This document shows positions 8,883 through 35,270 of a stretch of 36,840 nt of DNA, one piece after another (positions within the stretch are counted from its first letter, which is position 1; every line of letters begins with the position of its first letter). The DNA is taken from positions 1 to 36,840 of the forward strand of contig JAJFHU010000046.1 in assembly GCA_021775455.1 (NCBI GenBank), written 5' to 3'. The notes under the pieces were generated by a model. That model worked only from the letters and a program-made list of their open reading frames with translations. It was not told the DNA's origin and did not search any database. The stretch is from Hyphomicrobiales bacterium (GTDB taxonomy: Bacteria; Pseudomonadota; Alphaproteobacteria; Rhizobiales; Rhizobiaceae). Both the position numbers and the translations under genes were made by a program.

Positions 8883-9971
8883 ATGAGAGTTCTGGTTACC
8901 GGCGGTGCCGGGTTTATAGGATCTGCGGTTTGTCGCCACCTTGTGGCAAAGGGTGAAGACGAAGTCATCAATCTTGATTGCTTGACCTATGCCGGCAACC
9001 TCGCATCGCTCAAGTCGGTTGAAGGTTCGCCCAATTACACATTTGTAAATGGTAACATATGCGATGGCGATCTGGTCGACGCGGTGCTTCGCGAGCACAG
9101 AATTGAAGCCATTATGCATTTGGCAGCTGAAAGCCATGTTGATCGCTCGATTGATGGCCCGGAAACATTTGTTCAAACGAATATCGTCGGAACGTATCGT
9201 TTGTTGAATTCGGCAAGAAACTATTGGGAAGGATTGGGCGGAGAATCGAAAGAAAAATTTCGCTTTCATCACGTTTCTACAGATGAAGTGTTTGGCGATC
9301 TGCCATTCGATTCCGGCATTTTTACAGAAACAACACCCTATGCGCCATCTTCTCCGTACTCTGCATCAAAGGCGGCTTCCGATCATCTCGTTCGCGCGTG
9401 GCATGAGACGTACGGATTACCCATTGTACTATCGAATTGTTCCAATAATTACGGCCATTACCATTTTCCGGAAAAACTCATCCCGTTGGTGATTTTGAAT
9501 GCACTGGAGGAGAAGCCCCTGCCAATATATGGCAAGGGTGAAAATATCCGGGACTGGTTATACGTGGACGATCATGCGCAGGCACTTGAAACCGTCATGA
9601 AGAATGGCAAGGTTTCACAAAGTTACAATATCGGTGGTAATGCAGAAAAGACCAATCTGGAGGTTGTAGAAACGATTTGCCAGTTTCTGGACAAGAAGCT
9701 ACCTCGATCCAACGCCAAATCTTATGGGGAGCTGATATCCTTTGTATCGGATCGTCCGGGCCATGATCGCCGCTATGCCATTGATGCCAGCAAGATTGAC
9801 ACAGAGTTGGGTTGGAAGGCGAAGGAGACCTTTGAAACTGGTCTTTCAAAGACAATAGACTGGTATCTGGCTAATGAATGGTGGTGGCGCCCACTGCGAG
9901 TGGAGCGCTATTCAGGCAAACGTCTGGGCGAAAGAACTTCCGTTGCTGGAAACCGGCAAGAGACAGCGTAG
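8883..9971 (+). CDS. rfbB: dTDP-glucose 4,6-dehydratase
   Basis: RfbB/RmlB is an extended short-chain dehydrogenase that converts dTDP-glucose to the 4-keto-6-deoxy intermediate. Seen are the Rossmann NAD site GGAGFIGS at the N-terminus, '[15 protein letters not shown]', '[11 protein letters not shown]', the catalytic YSASK and '[15 protein letters not shown]'. It is 362 residues, full length, ending in the typical WWWRPLR tail plus a short extra stretch. The tail runs to 11 bases before the rfbD start. Confidence 0.96.
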
Positions 9972-12996: not shown

Positions 12997-13070
12997 GCGG
13001 GTATAGCACAGTGGTAGTGCAGCAGCCTTCCAAGCTGAATACGCGGGTTCGATTCCCGCTACCCGCTCCA
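12997..13070 (+). tRNA. tRNA-Gly (TCC), CCA encoded; integration target
   Basis: A 74-base tRNA with acceptor GCGGGTA pairing with TACCCGC, anticodon TCC at 13029-13031, T-loop GTTCGATTC and encoded CCA. Its 3' part from the anticodon arm on (13024-13071) recurs exactly at 35223-35270, so the integrated element entered here and rebuilt the gene with its own 3' half. The tRNA therefore stays intact and probably functional. Confidence 0.97.
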
Positions 13071-13071
13071 A
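13024..13071 (+). repeat. attL: 48-bp tRNA-Gly 3'-end repeat
   Basis: Exact match to 35223-35270, from the anticodon arm through CCA plus one base. The bases differ immediately outside on both sides, which fixes the crossover segment. Confidence 0.97.
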
Positions 13072-16045: not shown

Positions 16046-16423
16046 ATGATGAGACATAAAACTGACAGGCACCAGGATGGTGCAGAACGAACAATCAAAA
16101 ACATTCGCCGCCAAACGCGCAGACGTTTTTCTTCTGAAGAGAAGATACGCATTGTGCTGGCCGGATTACGTGGTGAAGACAGTATTGCCGAGTTGTGTCG
16201 TCAGGAAGGGATAGCCCAGAGCCAATATTACAGCTGGTCGAAGGAGTTCATGGAAGCTGGCAAAAGGCGCCTGGCTGGTGACACAGCGCGAGAGGCCAAT
16301 ACCAGTGAGGTGAAAGGCCTGCGCCGTGAGGCACGTGATCTGAAGGAAGTTGTTGCTGAACAGGCACTGGAATTACGTCTTCTCAAAAAAAGCATGATCG
16401 GGGATGGGGGAGACGACGAATGA
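16046..16423 (+). CDS. IS3-family transposase OrfA (HTH)
   Basis: A 125-residue protein with a transposase_8-type helix-turn-helix ('RRFSSEEKIRIVLAGLRGED', 'SIAELCRQEGIAQSQYYSWS') and a C-terminal leucine-zipper-like region ('LRREARDLKEVVAEQALELR') used for OrfA/OrfB association. GGAG lies upstream of ATG 16046; ATG 16049 is an alternative. Its stop overlaps the orfB start (ATGA). It seems intact but lacks a working OrfB. Confidence 0.85.
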   Translation: MMRHKTDRHQDGAERTIKNIRRQTRRRFSSEEKIRIVLAGLRGEDSIAELCRQEGIAQSQYYSWSKEFMEAGKRRLAGDTAREANTSEVKGLRREARDLKEVVAEQALELRLLKKSMIGDGGDDE

Positions 16424-16953
16424 AGTATCCATCTTCTGACAAGCTTGAGATCATTCGGCTGGTTGAGCACTCACACCTGCCAGTCAAGCAGGCACTGGGG
16501 CGACTGGGTATTCCACGCACGACGTTCTATCGTTGGTATGATCGTTATCAATCTGGTGGCGTTGAGGCGCTTGAGGATAAGGCTTCCCAACCGTTTCGCG
16601 TGTGGAACCGTATTCCCGATGATGTTCGGGATCGGATTGTTGATATGGCACTGGAATACCCGGAACTCTCGCCACGCGAACTGGCAGTGCGGTTTACAGA
16701 CACGCAAAGCTATTTTGTGTCTGAGGCTTCAGTCTATCGCCTGTTAAAAGCCCATGACCTGATCACCAGCCCAGCATTTGTGGTGATCAAGGCTGACAAC
16801 GAGTTCAAGGATAAAACAATCGCGCCCAACCAGATGTGGCAAACAGACTTCACTTATCTCAAGGTCATAGGCTGGGGATGGTTCTACTTGTCGACCATTC
16901 TCGATGACTTCTCGCGCTACATCATTGCCTGGAAGCTGTGTACGACGATGCGG
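16420..16953 (+). pseudogene. IS3-family transposase OrfB, truncated
   Basis: About 178 residues of OrfB: an N-terminal HTH ('VKQALGRLGIPRTTFYRWYD'), a HTH_21-type region ('YPELSPRELAVRF'), and the start of the rve integrase fold with the first catalytic Asp (QTDFTYLK) and the second (ILDDFSRYI). The segment with the catalytic Glu is missing. The frame stays open to 17088 through unrelated DNA, giving a meaningless tail. Confidence 0.85.
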
Positions 16954-16957
16954 TCGA

Positions 16958-17137
16958 ATGCATTGCCAATACACCGCACCATTTTATCTGTTCCTGATTG
17001 CCCCGGTCGCATTGCATGTCTTTGGCATTGTGCCCTTGGGGCCATATGCCTAGTGGATTATGGGCGCGGCGATTTTATTTGGTGGTAAGGTGATCTGGTG
17101 GGCATCCGAAAAAGCATGGGGGAAATATGTCAGTTGA
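16958..17137 (+). pseudogene. C-terminal fragment of an unidentified membrane protein
   Basis: Reading through one TAG (17051-17053), this frame encodes 'FYLFLIAPVALHVFGIVPLG', 'WIMGAAILFGGKVIWWASEK' and a final AWGKYVS: two hydrophobic segments with a positive end, as in the tail of a small membrane protein. It has no start and abuts the IS breakpoint. I do not recognise the family. It is probably the remains of a gene from the metal cargo removed by the IS-linked deletion. Confidence 0.45.
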
Positions 17138-17950: not shown

Positions 17951-20128
17951 CTAGCGTACTGGTTCAATTCCGTTCCAACGCAGAAGTCGCATTGCGTTTA
18001 GGGTAACGAGCACCGTCGCCCCCGTGTCTGCCAGGATCGCAGGCCATAACCCTGTAATGCCAAGAACTGTGGTAACGAGAAACACCGCCTTGAGACCAAG
18101 CGCTATCGTAATATTCTGGATGATATTTCGCATTGTGCCGCGTGACAGTGCAATCATTGATGGAACGTCCATCACTCGGGCGTGCAATGCAGCCGCATCT
18201 GCAGTCTCCAACGCGACGTCCGTTCCCCCGCCCATAGCAATGCCGACATCGGCCATGGCCAGTGCCGGTGCGTCATTGATGCCATCGCCAACTTTTGCAA
18301 CCCATTCTCCCGCCGACTTCAGTTCGGAGACAATTTTCTGCTTGTCATCCGGCAGGAGTTCTGATCTGCACTCGATACCCAATACTTCAGCAATCGCGGA
18401 TGCGGTCCGCGCGTTGTCACCGGTCAACATTACTGCTCGAACTTCGAGATCGCTCAGTTTTTGTAGGGCTTGTATGGCGTCTTGCCTAGGTTCGTCGCGC
18501 ATTGCAATAGCGCCAATAACCTCACCGTTCCCAACTAAAACGGCAACCGAGTTGCCGGAGCTGTTGAGAACTTCGATGCGGTCTGTGATGGCTTTGGGTA
18601 TATCGGCCATTTCTGAGGCGGCACTGGGTGATCCCAGGAACAGATTGATTCCATCAATTGTACCTTCAACGCCTTTGCCTGCAACCGCACGAGAATTTTG
18701 GGATGCCCTGACTTTAATTGCTTGTTGGGATGCTTTTTCCAGAATTGATACTGCAAGTGGGTGGCTGGAACCAGCTTCCAGAGTAGCGGCAAGACGCAGG
18801 ACATCTTCCGACTCTCGCGTTCCGGCAATAATTTCGGTCACCTTTGGCCGACCCTCGGTCAAAGTCCCGGTCTTATCGAAAGCGACAATGGTAATCTTTC
18901 CGAGCGTCTCCAAGACCGCGCCTCCCTTCATCAGCAAACCGCGCCGCGCGCCTGATGCGAGACTGGCCGCGATTGCAGCGGGCGTAGAAATAACCAAGGC
19001 GCAGGGGCATCCAATGAGGATCACCGCCAACCCCTTGTAGACCCATTCCGACCAGTTCCCACCGAAGAATACGGGTGGAACGGATGCGACCAAAATGGCG
19101 AACACTATGACGCCAGGCGTATAGTACTTTGAAAACCGGTCAATAAACCGCTGGGTTGGGGCTTTGGAATCTTGCGCCTCCTCAACAAGTTTAACGACGC
19201 GGGCAATTGTGTTGTCTTCTTGCGCCGCCGTCACTTCAATAGTGATTTGGCCATCTTCGTTTATAGTCCCGGCAAATACTGTATCGCCCGTCTCCTTGCG
19301 TTTTGGCATCGATTCACCGGTAACGGGTGCTTCGTTTATTGCGCTTATGCCTTCGACAATAACCCCATCCGCAGGAAGACGGTCTCCTGGACGAACAAGA
19401 ACCAGCGCACCAACGTTCAGGGAGGAGGCTTGCACTTCGCTGGTAATACCATTTTGAAGGAGCAGTGCGGTTTGGGGTACAAGTTCTCCTAGGGCTTGAA
19501 TACTGGACCGCGCACGTCCCGCCGCAACCCCTTCCAGAAGTTCGCCGACGAGGAAAAGAAATACGACTACCGCTGCTTCTTCGCTAGCATCGATGAATAG
19601 AGCACCAATTGCGGCTATGCTCATCAAAGTTTCGATTGTGAACGGCATGCCGTTAACTGCCGAAACTGCTGCTCGGCGAGCTATTGGAACCAGCCCGACC
19701 GTCATGGCAGCTATATATCCCCAAGGATCTGTAAACGGAAAAATGGTCGCAACTGCAAATGCTGCTGCAACTGCCAATCCGCATACAATGGTTAGCTTAG
19801 CCTTCGACGACGCCCACCAGGGACCGTGTTCAACATCGTGACTGTGGTTGTGAGAATTATCCTGCTCTCCATCTAACCCCTCACCTTTTGAAGAGCGATC
19901 CGGCGATGCCATATATCCGAGCTTACCTATTTTTTTGACGAGTCCTTCGAGATCGGCGGAAGGGCCGTGCTTCACACGGAGTTTTCCGGACATAACAGAC
20001 ACATTTACATCGTTAATTCCGTCGAGGCTCCGGGCGACATTTTCAATTTTGGACGCACAACTTGCGCAGTCCATCCCTTCAACCCGAAACAGTGTTTCAA
20101 AAATTTGCTCTGCCATGAGACCCTGCAT
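17951..20128 (-). CDS. Heavy-metal P1B-type ATPase (Zn/Cd/Pb class)
   Basis: A 725-residue efflux pump. It has one N-terminal metal-binding domain (GMDCASC, about residues 18-24), a His-rich linker ('DNSHNHSHDVEHG'), the transmembrane CPC motif GCPCALVIST, the phosphorylation site FDKTGTLTEG, the HP motif SSHPLA, the nucleotide hinge MLTGDN and GDGINDAPALA. The CPC motif plus His-rich region and the C-terminal membrane part fit ZntA/CadA-like Zn2+/Cd2+/Pb2+ export rather than CopA. Its promoter contains a MerR-type operator identical to the one before the MerR gene at 25148. M5 (20116) is an alternative start. Confidence 0.93.
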   Translation of the reverse strand: MQGLMAEQIFETLFRVEGMDCASCASKIENVARSLDGINDVNVSVMSGKLRVKHGPSADLEGLVKKIGKLGYMASPDRSSKGEGLDGEQDNSHNHSHDVEHGPWWASSKAKLTIVCGLAVAAAFAVATIFPFTDPWGYIAAMTVGLVPIARRAAVSAVNGMPFTIETLMSIAAIGALFIDASEEAAVVVFLFLVGELLEGVAAGRARSSIQALGELVPQTALLLQNGITSEVQASSLNVGALVLVRPGDRLPADGVIVEGISAINEAPVTGESMPKRKETGDTVFAGTINEDGQITIEVTAAQEDNTIARVVKLVEEAQDSKAPTQRFIDRFSKYYTPGVIVFAILVASVPPVFFGGNWSEWVYKGLAVILIGCPCALVISTPAAIAASLASGARRGLLMKGGAVLETLGKITIVAFDKTGTLTEGRPKVTEIIAGTRESEDVLRLAATLEAGSSHPLAVSILEKASQQAIKVRASQNSRAVAGKGVEGTIDGINLFLGSPSAASEMADIPKAITDRIEVLNSSGNSVAVLVGNGEVIGAIAMRDEPRQDAIQALQKLSDLEVRAVMLTGDNARTASAIAEVLGIECRSELLPDDKQKIVSELKSAGEWVAKVGDGINDAPALAMADVGIAMGGGTDVALETADAAALHARVMDVPSMIALSRGTMRNIIQNITIALGLKAVFLVTTVLGITGLWPAILADTGATVLVTLNAMRLLRWNGIEPVR

Positions 20129-21994: not shown

Positions 21995-22675
21995 TTAAGT
22001 GACAACTATTGCCGCATTTGTGACGGCCCTCATATAAAGATCAATTACATCCTGATTCATCATCCGAACGCAACCGGCAGAAACCGCTTTACCAATGGTC
22101 CAATATTCGGGTGTGCCATGAATCCGATAAAGCGTATCTTCTTTGCCTTGGAAAATGTAGAGCGCTCTTGAGCCAAGTGGGTTATGCAATCCCGGCGGCA
22201 TCCCGCCATTTTCCTCACTATAAACTGAAAGCTCTGGTTGACGATCAATCATTTCTTTCGGAGGTGTCCATTTTGGCCACTCTTGTTTCCATCCAATTCG
22301 GGCCCGACCGGACCACTCAAATCCAGCGCGACCGAGGCCAACTCCATACCGCATGGCCTTGCCTCCTTCTTGCACAAGATAAAGATAGAACTTCTTTGTA
22401 TCCACAATTACCGTACCCACTATCTCTGTGGTCGGATATTCCACTTGCCTTCGGTAATATTCTTTTGGAACCTTTTTCAAATCAACCGCAGGGATTGGGA
22501 ACCGCTCGTTTGGCAATGCGCTATAGATGGCTTCCTCAACACTCTGGTCTAGATCTTGTTTTTGCCGATTTATTGATAGCGAATTTATTTCGGTTATCCT
22601 TGCGCAACCGGTGACAGTTAAGCCGCTAAGCGCTAGAGAACCTGATAAAAATCGCCGTCTTGAATAAATTTTCAT
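21995..22675 (-). CDS. L,D-transpeptidase (YkuD), Tat/lipoprotein-type signal
   Basis: A 226-residue protein. The N-terminus has RRRFLSGS, a twin-arginine motif, followed by a hydrophobic run and a lipobox-like TVTGCA, so the mature protein may be an anchored lipoprotein. The YkuD domain carries 'IVDTKKFYLYLV', 'GLHNPLGSRALYIF' and the active-site region 'IHGTPEYWTIGKAVSAGCVR' with His and Cys. It forms 3-3 crosslinks in peptidoglycan or ties proteins to it. A paralogue lies at 23623-24183. The first gene of the pair that precedes it (22921-23271) encodes a small Cys protein, as in the second copy. Confidence 0.93.
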   Translation of the reverse strand: MKIYSRRRFLSGSLALSGLTVTGCARITEINSLSINRQKQDLDQSVEEAIYSALPNERFPIPAVDLKKVPKEYYRRQVEYPTTEIVGTVIVDTKKFYLYLVQEGGKAMRYGVGLGRAGFEWSGRARIGWKQEWPKWTPPKEMIDRQPELSVYSEENGGMPPGLHNPLGSRALYIFQGKEDTLYRIHGTPEYWTIGKAVSAGCVRMMNQDVIDLYMRAVTNAAIVVT

Positions 22676-23622: not shown

Positions 23623-24183
23623 TTATAGGACTACCACCTTCGCCCCAACCGCAACGCGTTCATAAAGCTCAATAACGTGATCATTGATCATACGTATGCA
23701 ACCGTTCGAAACCGACTGTCCGATTGAAGACGGCTGATTTGTACCGTGAATGCGAAAATAGGTGTCCTGATTGCCCAAATACAAATAAAGTGCTCTGGCG
23801 CCGAGCGGATTGTTCGGTCCACCAGGCACTCCGTTCGCAAATTTGGCGTATTTCTTAGGGTCACGTCGAATCATATTCTGCGTTGGTGTCCAACTCGGCC
23901 ATTCGGCTTTACGCCCAATGCGGGCTTTGCCCTTAAATGCTAGGCCAGCCTTGCCGACACCGACACCATATCGTCGTGCCCGCCCAAAAGATTGAACGAG
24001 ATAAAGATAGTGATTAGCCGTATCAATGACAATTGTCCCCGACGCATATCCGGTAAAACGCACCGATTGCGGGAGGTATTTTGGACTAAGCTTAAAATTA
24101 CTAGTGTTGTGGGCGCGGGCTGGAATTGTCGCTGCTAGAATTCCCAATCCACCACCCAATACGAAAAGTCGTCTTGTAAACAT
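23623..24183 (-). CDS. L,D-transpeptidase (YkuD), second copy
   Basis: A 186-residue protein with a twin-arginine-like leader (FTRRLFVLGGGLGILAATI, signal cleavage near ARA). The YkuD domain shows 'TIVIDTANHYLYLVQSFGRA', 'GGPNNPLGARALYLYLGN' and the catalytic 'RIHGTNQPSSIGQSVSNGCI' followed by RM, so the His and Cys are present. It is clearly paralogous to the protein at 21995-22675 over the catalytic domain but has a shorter N-terminus and no lipobox. TGGAG is about seven bases upstream of the ATG. Like the first copy it follows a gene for a small Cys-bearing protein. Confidence 0.93.
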   Translation of the reverse strand: MFTRRLFVLGGGLGILAATIPARAHNTSNFKLSPKYLPQSVRFTGYASGTIVIDTANHYLYLVQSFGRARRYGVGVGKAGLAFKGKARIGRKAEWPSWTPTQNMIRRDPKKYAKFANGVPGGPNNPLGARALYLYLGNQDTYFRIHGTNQPSSIGQSVSNGCIRMINDHVIELYERVAVGAKVVVL

Positions 24184-24734: not shown

Positions 24735-25148
24735 TTAGTGTTCTGCCTCGCACAAATTGTGATCAGCCAATGATTGAATGACGTTGCATTCACCGACATG
24801 TCCTGCATCTGATTTTAGGGTTATTCGTCTCAATTCTCTTTCCAGTCGCTTTAGTTTGACTATTCGCGCCTGGATTGAAGACAAATGACGGGAGGCGATG
24901 ATATGGGCGTTATTACATGACCACTCGGGATGATTGCTTAGTTCCGTGAGCTCTCGAATATCCCCGATTGACAAACCAAGTTCGCGGGCATGGCGAATGA
25001 ACGAAAGGCGTTCAAGCCCCTGTTTTGTATATCGCCGCTGGTTTCCTTCAGATCGATCGGGCGCTTCAATCAAACCCATCTGTTCATAGTACCGGATAGT
25101 TGTAATTTTTACTCCAGTGCACTTTGACAATTCACCAATTGACAACAT
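24735..25148 (-). CDS. MerR-family metal-responsive regulator (CadR/ZntR-like)
   Basis: A 137-residue regulator. The N-terminal winged HTH ('SIGELSKCTGVKITTIRYYE', 'QMGLIEAPDRSEGNQRRY') is typical of MerR proteins. A long dimerisation helix follows, with Cys in WSCNNAH and a C-terminal loop GECNVIQSLADHNLCE. One Cys before the helix and two in the loop is the Cys set of the CadR/PbrR/ZntR group, which sense Cd, Pb or Zn. The dyad CTCTAGTGACTAGAG occurs before this gene and before the P1B ATPase gene, so it should control both. Confidence 0.9.
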   Translation of the reverse strand: MLSIGELSKCTGVKITTIRYYEQMGLIEAPDRSEGNQRRYTKQGLERLSFIRHARELGLSIGDIRELTELSNHPEWSCNNAHIIASRHLSSIQARIVKLKRLERELRRITLKSDAGHVGECNVIQSLADHNLCEAEH

Positions 25149-25920: not shown

Positions 25921-26168
25921 GACAGTCGTTGTGATTCCAATTGGAGTTTTTTCCATTTGGGGTCTTTTGCCCATTCGTCGAGCCACTGCCGAACAAAGTC
26001 TTCAACATCATCAAATAGAGCTATCTGTTCAACGTGAATGAAGTGAGAGCGATAACCAGTTTCGGTTACAGGGAGTGCGGTGTCACATCTTAATTCAATG
26101 TGGTCAAATTCTAGGTTCAACCACCTTTCAACATGAGTGATCTCAACCGTAATCCCGTCCCAAGTTAT
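25908..26168 (-). CDS. Conserved small protein encoded after ardC; start uncertain
   Basis: A protein of about 86 residues. A conventional start appears only at TTG 26120 (70 residues), but clearly protein-like sequence continues upstream as 'ITWDGITVEITHVERWLNLE', up to and into the end of ardC. The first codon would then be non-canonical (ATA at 26168-26166 overlapping the ardC stop, or ATT at 26180). The interior 'LPVTETGYRSHFIHVEQI' and 'DFVRQWLDEWAKDPKWKKLQ' resemble small proteins that accompany ArdC homologues on alphaproteobacterial plasmids. Function unknown. The overlap implies coupled translation with ardC. Confidence 0.6.
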   Translation of the reverse strand: MTWDGITVEITHVERWLNLEFDHIELRCDTALPVTETGYRSHFIHVEQIALFDDVEDFVRQWLDEWAKDPKWKKLQLESQRLSLFN

Positions 26169-27016
26169 TGACTTAAAAATGTCACTGCTTCCTGGGCTTT
26201 GGCGGCGGCGGTGAAGATAGCTTTGTTATCAACCTTCATTACCTCCATCCAGTGAGCTAGATATTGAGCATGGTCTTGGCGTGGCTCCAAAGAAATACCA
26301 AGTTGTGCACATTGAAAAGCGGCACCCAGTTCAGCAATAAGTTCTTCCATTGCGTACTGGTCGTCACCAAACCGTTTTCCCATCACTCGATTACAGCGGT
26401 CTTTTGTACCACTCCAATGAACCAACTCATGTAAGAGAACAGAATAGTAGTTTTCTGTTCGAGTTGCAGTTTCCGTGTCAAAGAAGGCTCGGTCACTTGG
26501 CATTGAGATTGTATCGGTTGATGGCTTATAGAATGCGCTATCACTTCCGTTAGTTATCTTGGCTCCCGTCTTGTTCACGTAAACGTCTACAGCTTTTATG
26601 CGGTCAATAGGGTCTCCCTCTAATTGGGGGAGTTCATACCCATCAACCTGAGAGGCATTGAAAGCCCAACTAGCTCTAGCGAACCTGAGAGTATTTTCTT
26701 CTCCAGCGTCATCTTTTTTGATGTACTGCTTGTAGAAGATAACAAGAGTGGACTTTTCACCCTTACGGACTTGAGCGTCCTGTTTTGCCCACTGACGATA
26801 TGTTCCCCATATATTTGAGGTGTAGCCTCGGTCAATGGCGGTAACCCACAAACTTAGTATATTGATACCGTTGTAGTGGTTGCCACTTTCGATATTGTTG
26901 GGAAGCTGATTAACACCAGAGCGGTGCCAGGGCATTACGAGTTTGTCGTCTTCCGACAAGTTCTCAATTGCAGTTACAATCTGGTCTGTAACCGTCTTAT
27001 ATATATCAAGGGACAT
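26165..27016 (-). CDS. ArdC-like antirestriction / ssDNA-binding protein with zincin domain
   Basis: A 283-residue protein. The N-terminal domain ('MPWHRSGVNQLPNNIESGNH', 'YNGINILSLWVTA', 'GTYRQWAKQDAQVRKGEKST') is the DUF1738 ssDNA-binding part of ArdC, and the C-terminal domain has the metallopeptidase motif LHELVHWSG with a downstream Glu region 'AMEELIAELGAAF'. ArdC proteins are carried by conjugative plasmids and protect incoming single-stranded DNA or block restriction on entry. GGAGGG lies just before the ATG and is inside a long leader hairpin. Full length for the family. Confidence 0.9.
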   Translation of the reverse strand: MSLDIYKTVTDQIVTAIENLSEDDKLVMPWHRSGVNQLPNNIESGNHYNGINILSLWVTAIDRGYTSNIWGTYRQWAKQDAQVRKGEKSTLVIFYKQYIKKDDAGEENTLRFARASWAFNASQVDGYELPQLEGDPIDRIKAVDVYVNKTGAKITNGSDSAFYKPSTDTISMPSDRAFFDTETATRTENYYSVLLHELVHWSGTKDRCNRVMGKRFGDDQYAMEELIAELGAAFQCAQLGISLEPRQDHAQYLAHWMEVMKVDNKAIFTAAAKAQEAVTFLSQ

Positions 27017-27724: not shown

Positions 27725-28258
27725 TTAGAATGTCGGTAACTTAAGTGTACCGTCTTTGGAACTGTAGCCACAGTAGGCAATCAGTTTGCCGTTTTCATCC
27801 CGAAGTGGAAATGCAACACGACCTCTCATAATCCCTTTGGGGGAATATCCACAACCAAGTTTGGTAGCCACCTCTGCAGGTATACCAAGCTCTTGAACAG
27901 TTTCATGTTCTGCTTGTAGGTAGGAGAGGGGCTTTAACTTCCCTTTTGGTTTGTCGGCTTTCTCTTCAGTAGTTACATTCAAACATTTCTGCTGAATGTC
28001 TCGTGCCGCTTCTTTTGGGCGTAAGTTTAGTAGCCTTTCAACAAGGGAAATGATGTCACCACCAGATGGATCATCACACTTAAAACAATGCCACAAACCC
28101 TCACTTGGCGTAACAACAAATGCCCTCTTGCTGTCTGAACCGCAAATAGGACAAGGGCCACGTAGTTGGTTCCTCTCCTTCTTGAGTTGGATACCGTAAG
28201 CATCGAGTACCTGTGTAATAGATACTGACTTTTTGAGTTCAATGAAGTTGACGTACAT
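27725..28258 (-). CDS. CHC2 zinc-finger primase-like protein lacking a catalytic domain
   Basis: A 177-residue protein. The N-terminus has the DnaG-type zinc-binding domain (CPICG about residues 36-40, then LWHCFKC), followed by a helical linker and a segment 'GRVAFPLRDENGKLIAYCGY' that matches the N-terminal part of the DnaG RNA-polymerase core. The Toprim catalytic residues that should follow are absent; the protein ends at LKLPTF. It may be a template-recognition module that acts with another enzyme, or a truncated primase. AGGAGG lies upstream of the ATG, and its promoter overlaps a 22-bp palindrome. Confidence 0.8.
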   Translation of the reverse strand: MYVNFIELKKSVSITQVLDAYGIQLKKERNQLRGPCPICGSDSKRAFVVTPSEGLWHCFKCDDPSGGDIISLVERLLNLRPKEAARDIQQKCLNVTTEEKADKPKGKLKPLSYLQAEHETVQELGIPAEVATKLGCGYSPKGIMRGRVAFPLRDENGKLIAYCGYSSKDGTLKLPTF

Positions 28259-28558: not shown

Positions 28559-28583
28559 GCTCACGCTTCGGCGTGGGCTTTCT
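28559..28583 (+). terminator. Rho-independent terminator
   Basis: GCTCACGC-TTCG-GCGTGGGC, an 8-bp stem (one G-T pair) with a stable TTCG loop, followed by TTTCT. It ends the small plus-strand gene and sits where the relaxase gene ends from the other side. Confidence 0.75.
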
Positions 28584-29574
28584 ATATGGCAGACATTATA
28601 AAAGGTTCGTGTCCTACACGTTCTAAAGGTTTATCAACAGTTTCGCCAGTAGGGAAGGCTGGCGGTAACTTACCAAACTTAGGCATGGTGTCGTAGAGTG
28701 CCCAGGAAAAGCCTTTGCCCAACGAAAGTGCCTCGTTCACAGATTGGAGGTTTTTCTTATGGCGGTTGCTGATAGCAAGCGTAATCATAAGCATTGTCGG
28801 TAAATTCCAGTGAGACTTATATAATCCTTTTGCGATTGACTGATACACAAGGAGTTCCCTCTTATATCCTTTCCTTTTCACTCTCTGAGAAGGTGGGAGT
28901 TTTTTCTTAGTATATAGATTGGTGTCCTCAGTGGCTTGGTTGGCTTCTAAGAGAAAGCCCCGCCACTCTTTTTTGCTACCCTTTTTGTATTCAATGACAA
29001 ACATCTTATCAGGGACAGCATTTATTGTGGTTGAGTAACCATCAAAGATAATGGGAGCTGGAATAGAGAATGGATTACGGGACTTTCTTGCCTTTTCAGA
29101 AAAACGTAATGCTACTTCCCATGATGGAATAAATTTAAGATTGGGGTTCAAAAAACAACCTATCTCGACATCAGCTAGGTATTCGTTCTCAGCTATCTTG
29201 TGACTTAGAGAGCGATTACGGGAGTGGCCTTCAACTCTAGGAGTGTCTTTTGCGTTGAGTTGGTAGACATTAAAGTTATAGATACTATCCCCATATTCAC
29301 GTTGGGTAGGGGCTAATCTAATGAGTTTGTTGAAAACCATAAGTCCCAAACGTTCACGAACATATCGTGATTTAGTGCGGATATAGTCCTCTTTAGGAAT
29401 GGAACCGTCATAATCTACAAACGGGTCATTGCCTTTACGTATCTCAACTAATGCCCATATAAAGTGAGAGCGCAATGCGGAATAGTCGCCTAGAACCTCT
29501 TTAACAAGTTCAACAAGTTCGCTATCATCTCGAATCTTCTGCTTCCGCTTTGCCATATAAACATTATACGTCAT
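28582..29574 (-). CDS. Probable Replic_Relax-family relaxase / PD-(D/E)XK-like nuclease
   Basis: A 330-residue protein. After an N-terminal winged-helix-like part, 'LSHKIAENEYLADVEIGC' and later 'INAVPDKMFVIEYKKGSK' plus 'RGFLLEANQATEDTNLYTKK' and 'GYKRELLVYQ' follow the pattern of the replication-relaxation family: H-x-L in the core, then PD-x-hydrophobic strand-(E)-x-N/D-x-x-T-E and K...Y. This also resembles a PD-(D/E)XK nuclease core. It overlaps the end of the ATPase gene upstream by 11 bases. Its position behind two transfer-type ATPases supports DNA processing for mobilisation. The family call is from pattern only; M7 (29556) is an alternative start. Confidence 0.6.
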   Translation of the reverse strand: MTYNVYMAKRKQKIRDDSELVELVKEVLGDYSALRSHFIWALVEIRKGNDPFVDYDGSIPKEDYIRTKSRYVRERLGLMVFNKLIRLAPTQREYGDSIYNFNVYQLNAKDTPRVEGHSRNRSLSHKIAENEYLADVEIGCFLNPNLKFIPSWEVALRFSEKARKSRNPFSIPAPIIFDGYSTTINAVPDKMFVIEYKKGSKKEWRGFLLEANQATEDTNLYTKKKLPPSQRVKRKGYKRELLVYQSIAKGLYKSHWNLPTMLMITLAISNRHKKNLQSVNEALSLGKGFSWALYDTMPKFGKLPPAFPTGETVDKPLERVGHEPFIMSAI

Positions 29575-31612
29575 CTCCCCAATTTGGCGAGGGGTCAGTA
29601 GGGTCTAAGGTAGGTTCATCTATGTCATCAAGTGTGTCGTCTTGTTCATTTATGTTACTCATTTTAGAATAATGTATCGCATATTTTTTTCGCATATTAG
29701 ATCGAACTACCTTCCATTGTGCATCACTCATCAGCTCTAGTCTGTCCATTGTTCCATAAATTGTCTCATATTTAGTGATTGGTTTTCCACGAATCGACAT
29801 TGCCATAGTTAACTCACGGCAGTTTTTGATAAATTCTGGAGTAGTGTCCATCTCTGATGCCATAATCCTCGCGTCAGCTGACGAAATGCTACCCGCCATC
29901 TTAACAGCGGTGTTGCTATGGAGCGAATTAAGGACAGTTGAGGGTATCTGCCCAAGATACTGGTGAGCTAAAATTACACCAATTCGAAACTTCCTCGTCT
30001 GTTCAAGTATTTCCGTTATTTTATAATCAACGTAATCCTGACACTCGTCGATATATACGTAACAGGGTTTCCTTTCGTTTTTGGGGATTGCAATACGCTC
30101 TAAGGCGGCTTGATAAATTAGTGATATAAAAAACCTTCCAAAAATCTCCGTCCCCTTTTGTTTAAGTAAATCTTTAGAGGTAGAGATAAGGATAACTTTG
30201 CTCTGGTTCATCTCTTCAAACAAGTCTAACTTACTGTGTGTATGAGACATCATCCTCTCAAATGTTTGGTTCTTAAGGACACCAAACAATCTGCGACGCA
30301 CCTGTTTCTTAGTATCTAGAAATTGACTGGAAACGAACTCAGTATCAAAAAAACGCTTTGCGGTGGGTGGAAGTTTCTGAATGTGCTTCTCGAAGCGTTC
30401 GTATGCTCCATCCTCCATCAGGTCTAATAAGGTATGAATTGTGGAGTTGGGAATTATAAGCATTAGATGTGTAATGTATGAAAATAAGTCACTCTGCTTG
30501 GCTGTCATTTCAGCGCCCAACAAACCGCTGAAAACATACTCGAATATTTCAATAATGCCATTGAATGTTTGTTCTCGTACAAGAGGGGAGTAGGTTTTAA
30601 GGCGCTCCTCAGGGATATGAAAGAGATTGAGACAAACTGGGTATTCCATATCCTTTGGCTCGATTAGGACTAATCTGCCTTCTAACTCTTCACCTTTAGC
30701 AAAAACAGAAGAATGAGATAAATCGTTAATTAAGTCGCCCTGACTATCTATAACAATAATTGAGGCTTCATTGTCTTTGACAGATAAAAAATCGCTAACA
30801 ATCATCTGCATTATTGTTTGTGTTTTGCCATGCCCACTACCTGCAACAATATGATGGTGGGATTCTCTAATCTTGTTCGGATAACCACAAGTGACAACAC
30901 TAGAGAATATTTTTTGTAGAGGGGTATCCTTAAGGAATTTATCAAAGACAACGGCTGGGGTTAATCCTAACTCAGATAGGTGTTTGGTTTTCCGATTGGG
31001 ATTTTCCGATGTAGGGTCTATTCCATTTATCTCTAAGAAATTAGCCCATAGAGTTGTAGCGGTATAAGAGAACATCTCAAAGTTATTGTTGAGTTCAAAT
31101 AAATCGGCTGATACGTTGCCTATAACCGCAAAAAAATTATCAAAAGTATCATATACAAATGAATGAGAATACAGAGTTGTGTTCTTAGCAAGACGGCCAG
31201 ATACTACATCATGAGATATGCGACTCATTATATAGAATAATATATTTTCTAGTTTTTCCTTAGCTATCGTTAACCTGTCATGGAAACTTTCCATCTTATC
31301 GAAGTAGTCCTGAACATGCCCTTGGGCTAGTATGATTTCTGAGCGGGAAGCATCTTTCATTTCAACTACCCACTCAGGAAACTCTGGATAAAACTCTTCG
31401 ACAATCAATTCATGAGTTGCAGGAAAGAACATATCCCACATTCGTTCACATTTCTCATGGCCTGTGGCATCGGCGGCACTATTTACTATTTCCATTGCTA
31501 TGTCGTGGGAAGAATCAAACTCGTATATGGAATCAGATATGTATTTATTCTTCGTAATTTCATAAAGACGAAGTAACTCTTTCATCTCTAATTGAGTTTG
31601 TGTCTCAAACAT
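29564..31612 (-). CDS. VirD4/TraG-like coupling ATPase (HerA/FtsK superfamily), soluble
   Basis: A 682-residue protein. Walker A is GSGHGKTQT (about residue 260), followed by 'ASIIVIDSQGDLINDLS', an HP-type segment, Walker B in 'PCYVYIDECQDYVD' and the sensor region 'IGVILAHQYLGQIPSTVLNS', all typical of the C-terminal motor of VirD4/TraG proteins. The 250-residue N-terminal part has no membrane helix, unlike most coupling proteins, so it may reach the membrane through a partner. The C-terminal tail is acidic (DDTLDDIDEPTLDPTDPSP), as in proteins that dock partners. It starts one base after the gene upstream stops. Confidence 0.82.
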   Translation of the reverse strand: MFETQTQLEMKELLRLYEITKNKYISDSIYEFDSSHDIAMEIVNSAADATGHEKCERMWDMFFPATHELIVEEFYPEFPEWVVEMKDASRSEIILAQGHVQDYFDKMESFHDRLTIAKEKLENILFYIMSRISHDVVSGRLAKNTTLYSHSFVYDTFDNFFAVIGNVSADLFELNNNFEMFSYTATTLWANFLEINGIDPTSENPNRKTKHLSELGLTPAVVFDKFLKDTPLQKIFSSVVTCGYPNKIRESHHHIVAGSGHGKTQTIMQMIVSDFLSVKDNEASIIVIDSQGDLINDLSHSSVFAKGEELEGRLVLIEPKDMEYPVCLNLFHIPEERLKTYSPLVREQTFNGIIEIFEYVFSGLLGAEMTAKQSDLFSYITHLMLIIPNSTIHTLLDLMEDGAYERFEKHIQKLPPTAKRFFDTEFVSSQFLDTKKQVRRRLFGVLKNQTFERMMSHTHSKLDLFEEMNQSKVILISTSKDLLKQKGTEIFGRFFISLIYQAALERIAIPKNERKPCYVYIDECQDYVDYKITEILEQTRKFRIGVILAHQYLGQIPSTVLNSLHSNTAVKMAGSISSADARIMASEMDTTPEFIKNCRELTMAMSIRGKPITKYETIYGTMDRLELMSDAQWKVVRSNMRKKYAIHYSKMSNINEQDDTLDDIDEPTLDPTDPSPNWGDDV

Positions 31613-31613
31613 T

Positions 31614-32081
31614 CTATCGCCTCACATGGCGAGTAGTTCCAGTTTTACGGTCATATTCAAGGACAACATCACGGCGAGTGTCAGTGAGACTGGCTAATCT
31701 TTCAGATAGATATATAAAATTATTGTGAATAGCATTTTCAGCATTATCTGCTGCGAGGTTAGAGGAAACAGAGACAGTGCAACCTTTAAAAAGTATCTCA
31801 GTGGATAGAACAAGGTCGTACTTAGTTCTTGCGCTCCAAAACAAAAACCTCTCAAATAATCCAGCATTAGGTAAGGGTGATAGTGAAAAGAAACAAGTGT
31901 ATATGTCATCTATTGCGTGTTCACCCATACGTTCGCTTTGTAGTGCGGGACGACTAAAATAGTTATGTCTAATACGCCTCTTTTCTATGTCAGTAGCGTC
32001 GTAGTGAGCAATGACGTGATAGGTGTCACCAAGTACCCCTTCCGTCATTCGTCTCTGTAGTATGAGATTCATCACAATCAC
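31614..32081 (-). CDS. Hypothetical protein between the two motor ATPases
   Basis: A 152- to 155-residue soluble protein of unknown family. Possible starts are GTG 32081 (overlapping the previous stop as GTGA), GTG 32075 and ATG 32072. Visible segments such as 'SLSPLPNAGLFERFLFWSAR' and 'CTVSVSSNLAADNAENAIHN' suggest a mixed alpha/beta fold; there is no catalytic motif I recognise. Coupled by overlap to the ATPase before it and by a one-base gap to the ATPase after it, so it is likely made in step with both and may be an adaptor in the transfer complex. Confidence 0.6.
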   Translation of the reverse strand: MIVMNLILQRRMTEGVLGDTYHVIAHYDATDIEKRRIRHNYFSRPALQSERMGEHAIDDIYTCFFSLSPLPNAGLFERFLFWSARTKYDLVLSTEILFKGCTVSVSSNLAADNAENAIHNNFIYLSERLASLTDTRRDVVLEYDRKTGTTRHVRR

Positions 32082-33322
32082 CCTTTTGAGAGGGTGAGAA
32101 TAAACTTTTTTATCTTGAGAGTCACGCTAGCCAAATCGCGGGTGTAATAGTTGCGTGAATTTTTAATAATCGACTTGGTTTTGTTGTAGAACTGGGGTGG
32201 TTTTATGGACTGTACGCTGTGGTGAGTGCACTCTAATGTTTTCACATGAAATGTGTACGGATCAGTGTTTGTAATCTGTTGTGTGGTTAGTTCTAATTCA
32301 GGAGCAAGTAGCTCAGCATCATAATGTCCAAGCCTAAATGTGATTATTGTGCCCACGTTACCAAACACCGCTTTCTTCAAGTCTGTAGAGAGCTGGTCAA
32401 TGTACTGGTGGGCTAATGTGAGTGAGACATTGAATTTTCGTATTGTACTGAGTAGGTGTGGAAAAGCTGAAGAAGCAAACTGTTGAAATTCATCTATGTA
32501 AATATGGAATGGTTCGGGGTGTGGCTTCATTGCTGAAAGTGAGAGTTTAGCCATCAATACTCCACCTAGTAACCGTGCCTTGTCTTCGCCAATTTCAGCC
32601 TGGGAGAGATTAGCGATAAAGATTTTCTGTGTGTTTATAATATCGTCAAAGTGAATTCTATTACGTGGTTGAGCCACGATATTACGTATGGTTGGATCAG
32701 AGAGAAAACGACCTACTTTGTTTAGTGTGGATTGGGTGAGTTGTCTCTGTTCTTTGGGGTGAAGTTTACCAAACTCATGTTCCCAGAATGATTTTATTTC
32801 AGGGTCGCTTATTTGTGATAGAACACGATTTCTGAAGTGTGTATTTGTGAGTAAATATTTTACTGAGAGTAGGGTTCCGTCTGGTGTGTCAATTACGGCT
32901 GAAATGGCATTAAATAGAACCTGCTCTAATTGTGGTGTAGATACGTCTGAGAGACGCCAAAGGTGCTTAAAGGTGTCTAGTATCATATCGGCCACTAAAG
33001 GCTGTTCTGATGGCTCTACCCACTCACATGGGTTAAATGAAACAGGATACTGTCGGTCAGCGGGATTAAAGTACACTACGTCCTTTATCCTGTGCGACGG
33101 TACTAGCTCCAGAAGTGCTTTAGCATCTTCACCGTGTGGGTCAAAAAAGGCTACTCCACGTCCAGCCTCAATATCCTGTGAAAGCATTGAGAGCAATAAT
33201 GTGGATTTTCCCATTCCAGATTTACCAATGAGATATGTGTGTTTGAGTCGGTTGTCCTCTGGAATATTTACAATCTCAAATTCTTGATTTGGATTGTAGG
33301 ATTTCGTTTTTCCGAGTTCCAT
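32078..33322 (-). CDS. HerA/VirD4-like conjugative-transfer ATPase (DUF87-type)
   Basis: A 414-residue motor ATPase. Walker A GKSGMGKSTL (about residues 33-42), 'GRGVAFFDPHGEDAKALLEL', 'DVVYFNPADRQYPVSFNP', Walker B 'FHIYIDEFQQFAS' and the sensor 'VSLTLAHQYIDQLSTDLKKA' are the standard motifs of the type IV secretory conjugative-transfer family. It begins close to the ATPase core, with no membrane helices, shorter than relatives that have a long N-terminal domain. No ribosome-binding site is seen before the ATG. A TATAAT lies about 90 bases upstream. Two such motors in one small operon is unusual. Confidence 0.85.
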   Translation of the reverse strand: MELGKTKSYNPNQEFEIVNIPEDNRLKHTYLIGKSGMGKSTLLLSMLSQDIEAGRGVAFFDPHGEDAKALLELVPSHRIKDVVYFNPADRQYPVSFNPCEWVEPSEQPLVADMILDTFKHLWRLSDVSTPQLEQVLFNAISAVIDTPDGTLLSVKYLLTNTHFRNRVLSQISDPEIKSFWEHEFGKLHPKEQRQLTQSTLNKVGRFLSDPTIRNIVAQPRNRIHFDDIINTQKIFIANLSQAEIGEDKARLLGGVLMAKLSLSAMKPHPEPFHIYIDEFQQFASSAFPHLLSTIRKFNVSLTLAHQYIDQLSTDLKKAVFGNVGTIITFRLGHYDAELLAPELELTTQQITNTDPYTFHVKTLECTHHSVQSIKPPQFYNKTKSIIKNSRNYYTRDLASVTLKIKKFILTLSKG

Positions 33323-33411
33323 AATCAGAGCAGCGCAACACTGAGCAGCACCGATTTGTGTGGTCGGACTGGGTCGTGGGACGCTGCTGTCATTAAAGAA
33401 CGTCTACCTAC

Positions 33412-33417
33412 ATTATA
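33412..33417 (-). promoter_or_regulatory. -10 element for the transfer operon
   Basis: A perfect TATAAT on the minus strand about 90 bases before the ATPase start at 33322. No good -35 stands at 17 bases; the nearest likely partner (GTGACG) is slightly too far, suggesting help from a regulator. The leader after it can form an AGCAGCG/CGCTGCT stem. Confidence 0.5.
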
Positions 33418-33436
33418 CCTTTTTAAGGAACAGTAC

Positions 33437-33596
33437 CCGTCACCAGTTTGTCGTTACGAAGTACGACTTTCCTAGGTGAAGTGTTGAGTTTTGTCCGTCA
33501 CGGACATTATGCGAAACACCTTCAGTCCTCATGTCTTTTAAGACTAGGATTTAACTAGGAAAGTCGTGGTTTGAAACCCGACAAACTGTGTGACGG
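33437..33596. other. Nested multi-branched inverted-repeat structure
   Basis: In 160 bases: an outer stem, CCGTCACCAGTTTGTCG (33437-33453) with its complement at 33579-33596 (one extra base); a second stem nested inside, ACGACTTTCCTAG (33463-33475) with CTAGGAAAGTCGT (33555-33567), exact over 13 bp; within it a stem 33477-33485 with 33515-33524 (9 bp, one bulge) that encloses the near-perfect palindrome TGTCCGTCACGGACA (33492-33506); and a hairpin around GTCTTTTAAGAC (33533-33544). No coding frame is supported. It could be an origin of transfer, a replication origin or a structured RNA. It lies just upstream of the transfer operon promoter. Confidence 0.75.
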
Positions 33597-33617
33597 AATG
33601 GTGCTAAGTGTAGCCCT

Positions 33618-33643
33618 ATGAGTAGCTTTCCAAGCTATCTCAT
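33618..33643. repeat. Hairpin resembling the tRNA-Gly(TCC) anticodon arm
   Basis: ATGAGTAGCTT-TCC-AAGCTATCTCAT forms an 11-bp stem with one bulge. Its core AGTAGCTTTCCAAGCT differs at two of 16 positions from AGCAGCCTTCCAAGCT of the tRNA-Gly attachment site (13021-13036). It may be a secondary core-type integrase site. Confidence 0.55.
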
Positions 33644-33691
33644 ACATAATGAAACAGTACATGTATCAGTTTGCTTAATGCAAAACACATA

Positions 33692-33715
33692 GAAAAGGGG
33701 ACTAGAGTCTCCCCT
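33692..33715 (-). terminator. Terminator after alpA
   Basis: On the minus strand AGGGGA pairs with TCCCCT across an 11-base loop and is followed by TTTTCT. It should end the alpA transcript before the structured region. Confidence 0.65.
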
Positions 33716-33733
33716 AATCCCCTCTCGTCTCCC

Positions 33734-33928
33734 TCATTTCAGAGAGCGACTATGTCGGTTGTCGATACGCTGTTGTAGCCAGTCTAAAACCTCAGCCTCA
33801 ATCCAGCCTACTCGACACGTGCCAAGTTGTACCCGTTGAGGGAACTCCCCTTTACGCTCAAGTCGGTCAATGTGTTGGTTGGAGTATAGGACCAAACTGC
33901 GTATCTCCTTTTTCGACAATATTTTCAT
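33734..33928 (-). CDS. AlpA-like excisionase / regulator
   Basis: A 64-residue DNA-binding protein with the AlpA winged HTH: 'ILSKKEIRSLVLYSNQHIDR', 'LERKGEFPQRVQLGTCRVGW' and 'EAEVLDWLQQRI'. AlpA-family proteins activate or direct excision of integrated elements and regulate the adjacent integrase. Here it lies 74 bases after the integrase gene on the same strand. AAGGAG is nine bases upstream of the ATG but inside a leader that can fold in several ways. Confidence 0.9.
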   Translation of the reverse strand: MKILSKKEIRSLVLYSNQHIDRLERKGEFPQRVQLGTCRVGWIEAEVLDWLQQRIDNRHSRSLK

Positions 33929-33937
33929 CGCAACATT

Positions 33938-33985
33938 CTCCTTGTGAAAGGAGGCTGTCGCGACTAGCCTCGGTTAAACCTAGGC
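33938..33985 (-). promoter_or_regulatory. alpA leader with competing hairpins
   Basis: In the minus-strand transcript the Shine-Dalgarno AAGGAG (33943-33938) can pair with CTCCTT (33953-33948) across a 4-base loop. The same CTC can instead pair in AGCCTC/GAGGCT (33951-33956 with 33966-33971), and that GAGGC can pair in GCCTAGGTTTAACCGAGGC (33985-33967). The three stems overlap pairwise, so forming one frees or hides the ribosome-binding site. Confidence 0.6.
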
Positions 33986-34002
33986 TTTCATAATATGGGA
34001 GT

Positions 34003-35094
34003 TCATTTGGTAATAGTCAAAATCTTATCATGCCAGAGTGTGAGTGCTGATTTCATCTCATTAAAATACGTGTGGCGATTGTAGATTTTACCCAAGCTGG
34101 AGATAGTCCCTGTAGAGTGATTTAACACTCTTTCTATGATGTGTGGTTGAACACCTAACTCGGCCATGTGTGTAGCTGTGGTTCTTCTAAGGTCATGGAT
34201 TGTCCAGTGTGGTATATCCATTTTATTGTCGAGAGTATTCTTTAATCTTGCAAAGCCAGATATCGGTTTTCCAGAGCCGCTAGCAGGGAATAGGTATGTG
34301 GAATTAGTAGACACTTTATCCAAGTGAATTTGGATTAGATTTGTTATCGGTAAATGGTGGTCAAGTTTGTTTTTTGTGTCCAAGAAAACTAGTTCTTTAT
34401 CAGTGATATTTTCGAGCTTAAGTGTGGCTATTTCTGAACGTCTTGCACCAGTTAAAAGTAGTATACGGATGAATGTTCCAAACGGATTGTAGTCTGTGTT
34501 TTCCCATAAGGATTGTATCTCTGTATCTGTAAGGACACGGTCTCTCGTTTTTTCTTTGAACGGCTGTGAGAGTACGTCTGTAGGTGCACTAGTTATCATG
34601 CCTCGTTTTTTACACCAGTTAAGAAATGTGCGTATGGCTCTAAAGGTGTGGTTAGCTTCGCTAGGTTTAAGTTTGTCTATTATTAAGTTGATGTCTCTAA
34701 TTTCTAAAGTGTGAAGTGGTCTGTGGAACAGGTGTTTGCAATGAAGTTCGTAATATCTCGCGTAGGTTCTGAGGGTAGATTCAGAATATGTGGACATGTG
34801 TTGTTGTTTGAATTGATTGTATGCGTCTAGGAACGTTGGTGAGGTGTTTTCTAAATATCCAAGTTGATGTTCGGCGAGTATGCGTTTTGCTTCTGTACGA
34901 GCTTGTGAGAGGGTCAATATTGGGTAACGACCAATAGTTACACGCTTACGAGGTTTGCCATATAGGAGGGTAAAAGTCTTCGCTCCTTTGGAGGAAACAC
35001 GGATAGTAAAGCCTTTAATAGTGTCATCATAATAGGCTTTCTGTCCCTGGGCGGGAATCGGTAGGTTCTTGATGGTGATATCTGTAAGGTTCAT
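34003..35094 (-). CDS. Tyrosine site-specific integrase
   Basis: A 363-residue recombinase. The N-terminal arm-binding domain ('KAYYDDTIKGFTIRVSSKGA', 'RKRVTIGRYPILTLSQARTE') is the DUF4102/P4-type domain, followed by a SAM-like core-binding domain and the catalytic domain with Arg in TGARRSEI, HDLRRTTATHM, the second His in VLNHSTG and the nucleophile Tyr in 'IYNRHTYFNE'. It drives insertion into tRNA-Gly. The gene points inward from attR. No Shine-Dalgarno is seen; instead the AGGTTC arm repeats run through the start codon, suggesting that integrase binding limits its own synthesis. Confidence 0.95.
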   Translation of the reverse strand: MNLTDITIKNLPIPAQGQKAYYDDTIKGFTIRVSSKGAKTFTLLYGKPRKRVTIGRYPILTLSQARTEAKRILAEHQLGYLENTSPTFLDAYNQFKQQHMSTYSESTLRTYARYYELHCKHLFHRPLHTLEIRDINLIIDKLKPSEANHTFRAIRTFLNWCKKRGMITSAPTDVLSQPFKEKTRDRVLTDTEIQSLWENTDYNPFGTFIRILLLTGARRSEIATLKLENITDKELVFLDTKNKLDHHLPITNLIQIHLDKVSTNSTYLFPASGSGKPISGFARLKNTLDNKMDIPHWTIHDLRRTTATHMAELGVQPHIIERVLNHSTGTISSLGKIYNRHTYFNEMKSALTLWHDKILTITK

Positions 35095-35222: not shown

Positions 35223-35270
35223 AGCCTTCCAAGCTGAATACGCGGGTTCGATTCCCGCTACCCGCTCCAA
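35223..35270 (+). repeat. attR: 48-bp partial tRNA-Gly copy
   Basis: Exact copy of 13024-13071. It contains no 5' half and so does not encode a tRNA. Sequence to the right is chromosomal. Confidence 0.97.

Follow-up and report, generated by a model that had tools for sequence, protein, structure and literature searches.

Between an integrase/alpA module and an operon for a coupling-protein candidate and a relaxase candidate, a contig of a Hyphomicrobiales bacterium (JAJFHU010000046.1, assembly GCA_021775455.1) carries a branched inverted repeat of 160 bases at positions 33437-33596, and the question arises which function such a structure serves. The whole stretch of 36,840 nucleotides was analysed and is called the window here; loci are given as L numbers and genomes as G numbers. 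A first-pass annotation, made from the letters alone, had described the repeat as ordered beyond chance and had named an origin of transfer as the first of its possible roles. The order is borne out: folded as RNA, the + strand of 33437-33596 reaches −77.9 kcal/mol compared with a mean of −38.5 (sd 4.0) for 200 dinucleotide shuffles, none of which was as good (z −9.8), and the − strand reaches −66.3 kcal/mol (z −7.6). The 160-base fold is thus a real structure, and the evidence presented below favours the transfer origin. A search of the window's own genome with the fold gave the fold itself as the single match. None of the Rfam covariance models matched at the fold at gathering thresholds; the only matches in the window were two tRNAs.

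Read 5′ to 3′ on the strand opposite the ATPase 1 gene, which is the + strand of the window, the trunk is composed of P1-GTC, segment a, GAC-P2, two arms, P2′-GTC, segment b and GAC-P1′. The outer stem P1 (33437-33452 with 33580-33596) is present as had been described, with 16 pairs and one bulged T in place of the reported 17 bp; its 5′ arm ends with a conserved GTC (33450-33452) and its 3′ arm, which contains the bulged T, begins with an invariant GAC. The inner stem P2 (33465-33475 with 33555-33565) starts with an invariant GAC and ends with an invariant GTC (33563-33565), and is part of the exact 13-bp stem noted previously (33463-33475 with 33555-33567). Both arms of P1 and the 5′ arm of P2 are supported by folding, a strict descriptor and covariation. 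From this trunk the fold opens into the two-armed junction proposed earlier, consisting of arm 1 (33477-33524), whose sequence varies among relatives, and arm 2 (33525-33550), a variable hairpin; inner arms exist also in L040, L059 and the plasmid CloDF13, with different sequence. Segment a (33453-33464), on the 5′ side between P1 and P2, may form a small hairpin with GTC/GAC according to a hand reading of the sequence. Segment b (33566-33579), between P2 and P1 on the 3′ side, is the separate small hairpin GTGGTTTGAAACCC already recognized in the first pass; it is supported by folding and the strict descriptor, and by hand reading its stem co-varies among the window, L040, L059, L099 and L067. 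Adjacent to the trunk a partly conserved flank, GGAATG..GTG..AGT..AGC..TATG (33595-33620, + strand), was found by eye in L040 and L058, and its GGAATG also in L059. Toward the ATPase gene a TATAAT hexamer (33412-33417, − strand) is a possible promoter that has no good −35 and is absent from the promoter scan output.

The fold is embedded in an integrated element. A 48-bp repeat of a tRNA-Gly 3′ end occurs in two identical copies on the + strand, att repeat 1 at 13024-13071 and att repeat 2, which adjoins the integrase, at 35223-35270, delimiting an element of about 22.2 kb. An integrase and att repeats, as required for an integrative mobilizable element, are therefore both present; the integrase sits at the end of the element far from the tRNA gene. 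Domain scans of the − strand assigned a tyrosine integrase (Arm-DNA-bind_3, Phage_integrase; 34003-35094), an AlpA-type excisionase/regulator (33734-33928), the VirD4/TraG-like ATPase 1 as coupling-protein candidate (32078-33322; PF02534 and PF12696 above cut-offs), a 155-aa protein, orf155, that matches no family (31614-32081), the VirD4/HerA-like ATPase 2 (29564-31612), a DnaG-type zinc-ribbon protein of 177 aa (27725-28258) and an ArdC-type anti-restriction protein (26165-27016). The relaxase candidate of 330 aa (28582-29574, − strand) was recognized by PF13814 matches of its relatives, an alignment and an AlphaFold model.

Ten relatives of the 330-aa protein were compared with PF13814, which an excerpt of PMC5357655 equates with MobC, and nine scored above the cut-off, namely the relaxase relative in L058 (E 1.6e-8) and eight of eight in a second set (E 1.5e-7 to 1.4e-14); the relative in L059 gave no match to PF13814. 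The CloDF13-type MobC of L103 matched with E 1.7e-22. In the domain scan the window protein itself did not match PF13814, so the Replic_Relax-type link made in the first pass holds for the relatives and not for the protein directly, and hhalign of the family profile against MobC was not significant (E 0.44). The link to MobC therefore runs via the relatives. Furthermore, H125, D189 and E210 are invariant in a 20-row alignment that includes the window. With regard to the PD-(D/E)XK nuclease fold of the MOB_C system, the AlphaFold model has a pLDDT of 86, and Foldseek gave no PDB match at E 1e-3 with it and only weak matches, several of them to restriction enzymes; a relationship of MOB_C relaxases to restriction endonucleases is described in a section of PMC12857230. 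Among plasmid records the only relative of the L058 relaxase belongs to Sulfitobacter.

Relatives of ATPase 1 are present in 31 of 297 genomes of the order and 10 of 385 of the class at E 1e-20, both counts including the window's own genome and G035 being in both sets. Protein scans elsewhere gave one relative in a genome contig collection and none in viral contigs. By folding, the upstream regions of several of these relatives contain strong structures near the corresponding place. Used as a DNA query, the window fold pointed to one suggestive site adjoining an ATPase relative in G006 (39 bases, 80%, E 0.067). Along the 3′ side of the trunk, two loci of this genome, L040 and L059, have letters in common with the window. 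A covariance model built from L040 and L059 only, R1, matched the window with E 1.4e-7, L067 with E 7.6e-5 and L058 with E 0.0029 among 46 sources. At E 0.1 it matched five of 397 genomes: the window's own, G006, G774 (E 5.7e-10, integrase adjacent), G059 and G280. The matches in G059 and G280 were dropped as chance because their folds, inspected by eye, lack a nested trunk and no match to any of nine window genes lies nearby.

The trunk is common to five relatives and lies upstream of the ATPase 1 gene in four of them (L040, L058, L059 and L067); in L059 the distance is about 1.2 kb and another ORF is located in between. The site in L099 has an adjacent integrase and no ATPase 1 match. Across the 45 fetched stretches, the folds of 16 of which were viewed by eye and the others judged by scripts alone, the full trunk was recognized in the same four and a partial core in six (L042, L043, L045, L047, L057 and L069). 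DNA searches of a plasmid collection with the folds of the window, L040 and L059 gave no match, and a pattern scan for the fold in viral contigs found none. Loss of the pairing in elements that keep the genes had been named at the outset as a refutation of the reading; some gene-keeping relatives have indeed no recognizable trunk, and in others it is kept. The former are read as cases of divergence, though they are a caveat.

Other structures occur at this place as well. A second element in the window's own genome (G000:C28) has the ATPase pair of the window element and also a PF13814 protein, and upstream of its ATPase 1 (L060:7500-7700) there is a nearly perfect long hairpin, not the branched trunk. 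In another group the sequence immediately 5′ of ATPase 1 forms a different conserved structure (L042:16720-16859, L045:1247-1386, L046:9028-9171 and L043:3082-3225); it is not the same trunk and was set aside. The trunk-like core of L042, L043 and L045, with GTC..GAC or GTC..GGC, is located further upstream than this ATPase-proximal structure.

According to the first-pass annotation the fold matches no known oriT. This is contradicted by the oriT region of CloDF13 (NC_002119), which has the same nested trunk and arms. The strongest 160-base fold of CloDF13 in a GC-corrected scan is at 9641-9800, and the fold of 9615-9800 has a z of −7.2; it comprises the outer stem CCCCCGTC/GACGGGGG, the inner stem GACCACCC/GGGTGGTC, two arms and GGGCGTGAGCCT as segment b. 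It is regarded as the oriT region because of its location upstream of mobB in the near relative L103 and of statements in an excerpt of PMC2262945. Like the window fold it possesses nested P1/P2, the GTC/GAC core, a small 3′ segment and two inner arms, and it is read on the strand opposite the mob genes, upstream of them (gene placement via L103). The two folds differ in the letters at variable stem positions, and CloDF13 is a plasmid with one large coupling protein, whereas the window fold belongs to an integrated element with two ATPases. R1 matches CloDF13 at 9645-9791 on the + strand with E 0.0033, a value which is weak taken alone since short-hairpin matches in L107 (2.6e-5) and L103 (0.003) outscore it.

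The trunk layout of the window is shared by the MOB_C oriT of the ICEKp1/pMET1 type, studied via L105 and L107; these are, in contrast to the window, enterobacterial, have a longer segment b and fold equally well or better on the other strand. L106 has a trunk with one non-standard pair in P1, and in L104 no trunk was recognizable by descriptors or hand reading. In the oriT region of a Citrobacter plasmid (L103:8081-8500) the outer stem and one hairpin remain, as if the inner stem and arms had been lost between repeats; being reduced to P1 and a hairpin, this repeat is not counted as a full trunk. The gene order oriT-mobB-mobC is given for pMET1 and likewise CloDF13 in the excerpt of PMC2262945, and the annotations of L103, L105 and L107 list a coupling-protein gene followed by mobC. 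The window has the same MOB_C layout, an oriT upstream of the coupling-protein gene and a relaxase gene downstream, its order being fold, ATPase 1, orf155, ATPase 2 and relaxase candidate. Among the matches listed in open-access literature, none had a title or opening of the abstract that dealt with a conserved oriT fold of MOB_C systems.

Conservation of the trunk was examined in an alignment of its 8 + 8 innermost pairs from ten chosen sites, with L058 excluded because its P1 lacks the GTC/GAC ends. In this alignment 96.3% of the cells pair, a percentage that is biased upwards since the rows are recognized sites and several were found via folding or pairing rules. Changes on both sides of a pair are the stronger point: they affect 10 of the 16 pairs, in 40 cells. 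The covariation score is 0.661 compared with 0.207 for shuffled alignments, is reached by none of 500 shuffles and falls to at most 0.194 when the alignment is slid by 1-3 columns, bearing in mind that kinship alone can lift related sequences above shuffles without any structure. Softer measures were reached more often, the number of pairs changed on both sides by 47 of 500 shuffles and that of further pair types by 24 of 500. Five pairs never vary, all of them in the GTC/GAC core. The covariation check suggested in the first pass is thus positive for the trunk: compensating changes preserve P1/P2 and its GTC/GAC core, and the arms diverge. A covariation-supported structure is common to the window element group and CloDF13.

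A strict descriptor of the trunk found eight places in 57 loci (843,360 bases), a set from which L001-L039 and fifteen overlapping loci (L074-L081, L092-L098) are excluded. Six of the eight lie upstream of a coupling-protein gene (window, L040, CloDF13, L105, L107 and L108); the remaining two are L056:4167-4353 and L069:836-994. Counted per strand there are 12 sites, where 12 dinucleotide-shuffled versions contain 2.4 on average (range 0-6); the descriptor was composed after most of its sites were known, L108 being the one found unseen. A loose form that tolerated one mismatch in each stem did not discriminate at all (206 sites in the real and 194 in the shuffled sequences), so that the strict form alone was used. 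An earlier descriptor demanding the small hairpin matched one of nine plasmid upstream regions, that of CloDF13.

The fold is very probably the oriT of an integrative mobilizable element of 22.2 kb whose relaxase would be of the MOB_C type (CloDF13-like, PF13814). Its RNA fold is also very stable (z −9.8), and with RNA parameters the + strand is the better one in 11 of 13 related structures, both of which would suit a structured noncoding RNA required for transfer, either transcribed from the + strand or cut out of a longer RNA. A precedent is the sgm-sRNA of SGI1, encoded beside the oriT of this island (excerpt of PMC9299015). SGI1 resembles the window element as an integrated mobilizable island with a structured sequence adjoining its mobilization genes, but it has a tyrosine-recombinase-type MpsA instead of a PF13814 protein, and its sRNA core is distinct from oriT, which according to the same excerpt is not part of that core (PMC9299015). 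Such an RNA is very unlikely in the window, where a scan of 33200-34050 reported no promoter-like site on the + strand, a terminator-like hairpin 3′ of alpA (33693-33726, − strand, hairpin scan) lies between fold and alpA, and the left flanks of six sites have no common motif by eye; moreover, the CloDF13 counterpart is within the oriT region of its plasmid.

Replication of the excised circle would be another function, the fold being a double-strand origin or single-strand conversion signal serving either the PF13814-related protein or the primase-like protein with a zinc ribbon. Both kinds of site typically contain long imperfect palindromes, and the element does encode a zinc-ribbon primase-like protein. 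However, CloDF13 is typed as a ColRNAI replicon and still has the same fold by its mob genes, away from which we take its ColRNAI origin to be located, and the feature that recurs is the position upstream of a coupling-protein gene; an origin of replication is accordingly as improbable as the RNA. Least probable of all is a recombination or regulatory site, that is an attP-like folded site or an operator for AlpA or the integrase. The fold adjoins alpA and int, the L099 site lies beside an integrase without ATPase 1, and the GTC..GAC segments, being dyads, could be bound by a dimer, yet the att repeats map elsewhere (13024-13071 and 35223-35270) and the gene tables of the CloDF13, L105, L107 and L108 stretches, which are incomplete, annotate no integrase by the fold.

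With the fold as probable oriT, a likely transfer origin is named for a group of integrated elements and its nick can be predicted to the base. For ICEKp1, of class MOB C1, the nic GGTTG|GTCGCG is given in an excerpt of PMC7755788, and on both strands of L105 P2 finishes with these letters. All ten chosen sites have the GTC at an unchanged place in P2; just before it the window has an A and the published ICEKp1 nic a G. By this match in position the nic is predicted inside the 3′ arm of P2 at 33562|33563 on the + strand. A mirror nic is possible at 33467|33468 of the − strand; for pMET1 two nic sites inside an inverted repeat are reported in part of PMC2262945. All 13 related structures favour the strand opposite the ATPase gene when folded with DNA parameters, and 11 of the 13 do so under RNA parameters. 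In a set of 11 that takes in plasmids, this strand is the better one with DNA parameters in 7, L105, L106, L107 and L108 being reversed. This mixed bias supports, without proving, the strand opposite the ATPase gene as the transferred one.

After excision the relaxase, together with one or both VirD4-like ATPases, would nick just 5′ of the GTC that ends P2. The freed strand would then exit 5′ end first through the secretion channel of a helper, which is proposed because no mating-pore family was detected among 19 proteins scanned from part of the open reading frames of the element. On arrival, P1 near the 3′ end could pair with P1′ near the 5′ end, the continuous 5′ arm of P2 would span the nick, and the ends would meet as a resealable nicked duplex. 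Since P1 and P2 pair DNA on both sides of the predicted nick, the fold could splint the ends for resealing. For TraX of pAD1, a MOB_C relaxase, no covalent DNA intermediate was seen according to an excerpt of PMC12857230, which leaves the resealing of the strand unexplained for this studied enzyme. Tentatively, and with considerable doubt, we suggest that the oriT itself and not a covalently held relaxase aligns the ends, P1 joining them across the nick and P2 forming a nicked duplex whose 5′ side contributes three pairs (GTC/GAC). The four GTC/GAC triplets could also pair in the side hairpins a and b, and a four-way junction might in this way switch between nicking and sealing forms. The already stated question of how conjugation ends if the relaxase leaves the DNA end is thereby made testable.

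Apart from its presumed transfer functions the element carries cargo, including a heavy-metal P-type ATPase and a MerR-type regulator (17951-20128 and 24735-25148) and two L,D-transpeptidase genes (21995-22675 and 23623-24183). Transposase pieces at 16046-17088, with HTH_Tnp_1 and a partial rve domain, are probably the remnant of an insertion sequence. In the relative L067, genes for Multiubiquitin/E2-like and ThiF proteins are located near the fold (L067:12399-15010) and are possibly defence cargo.
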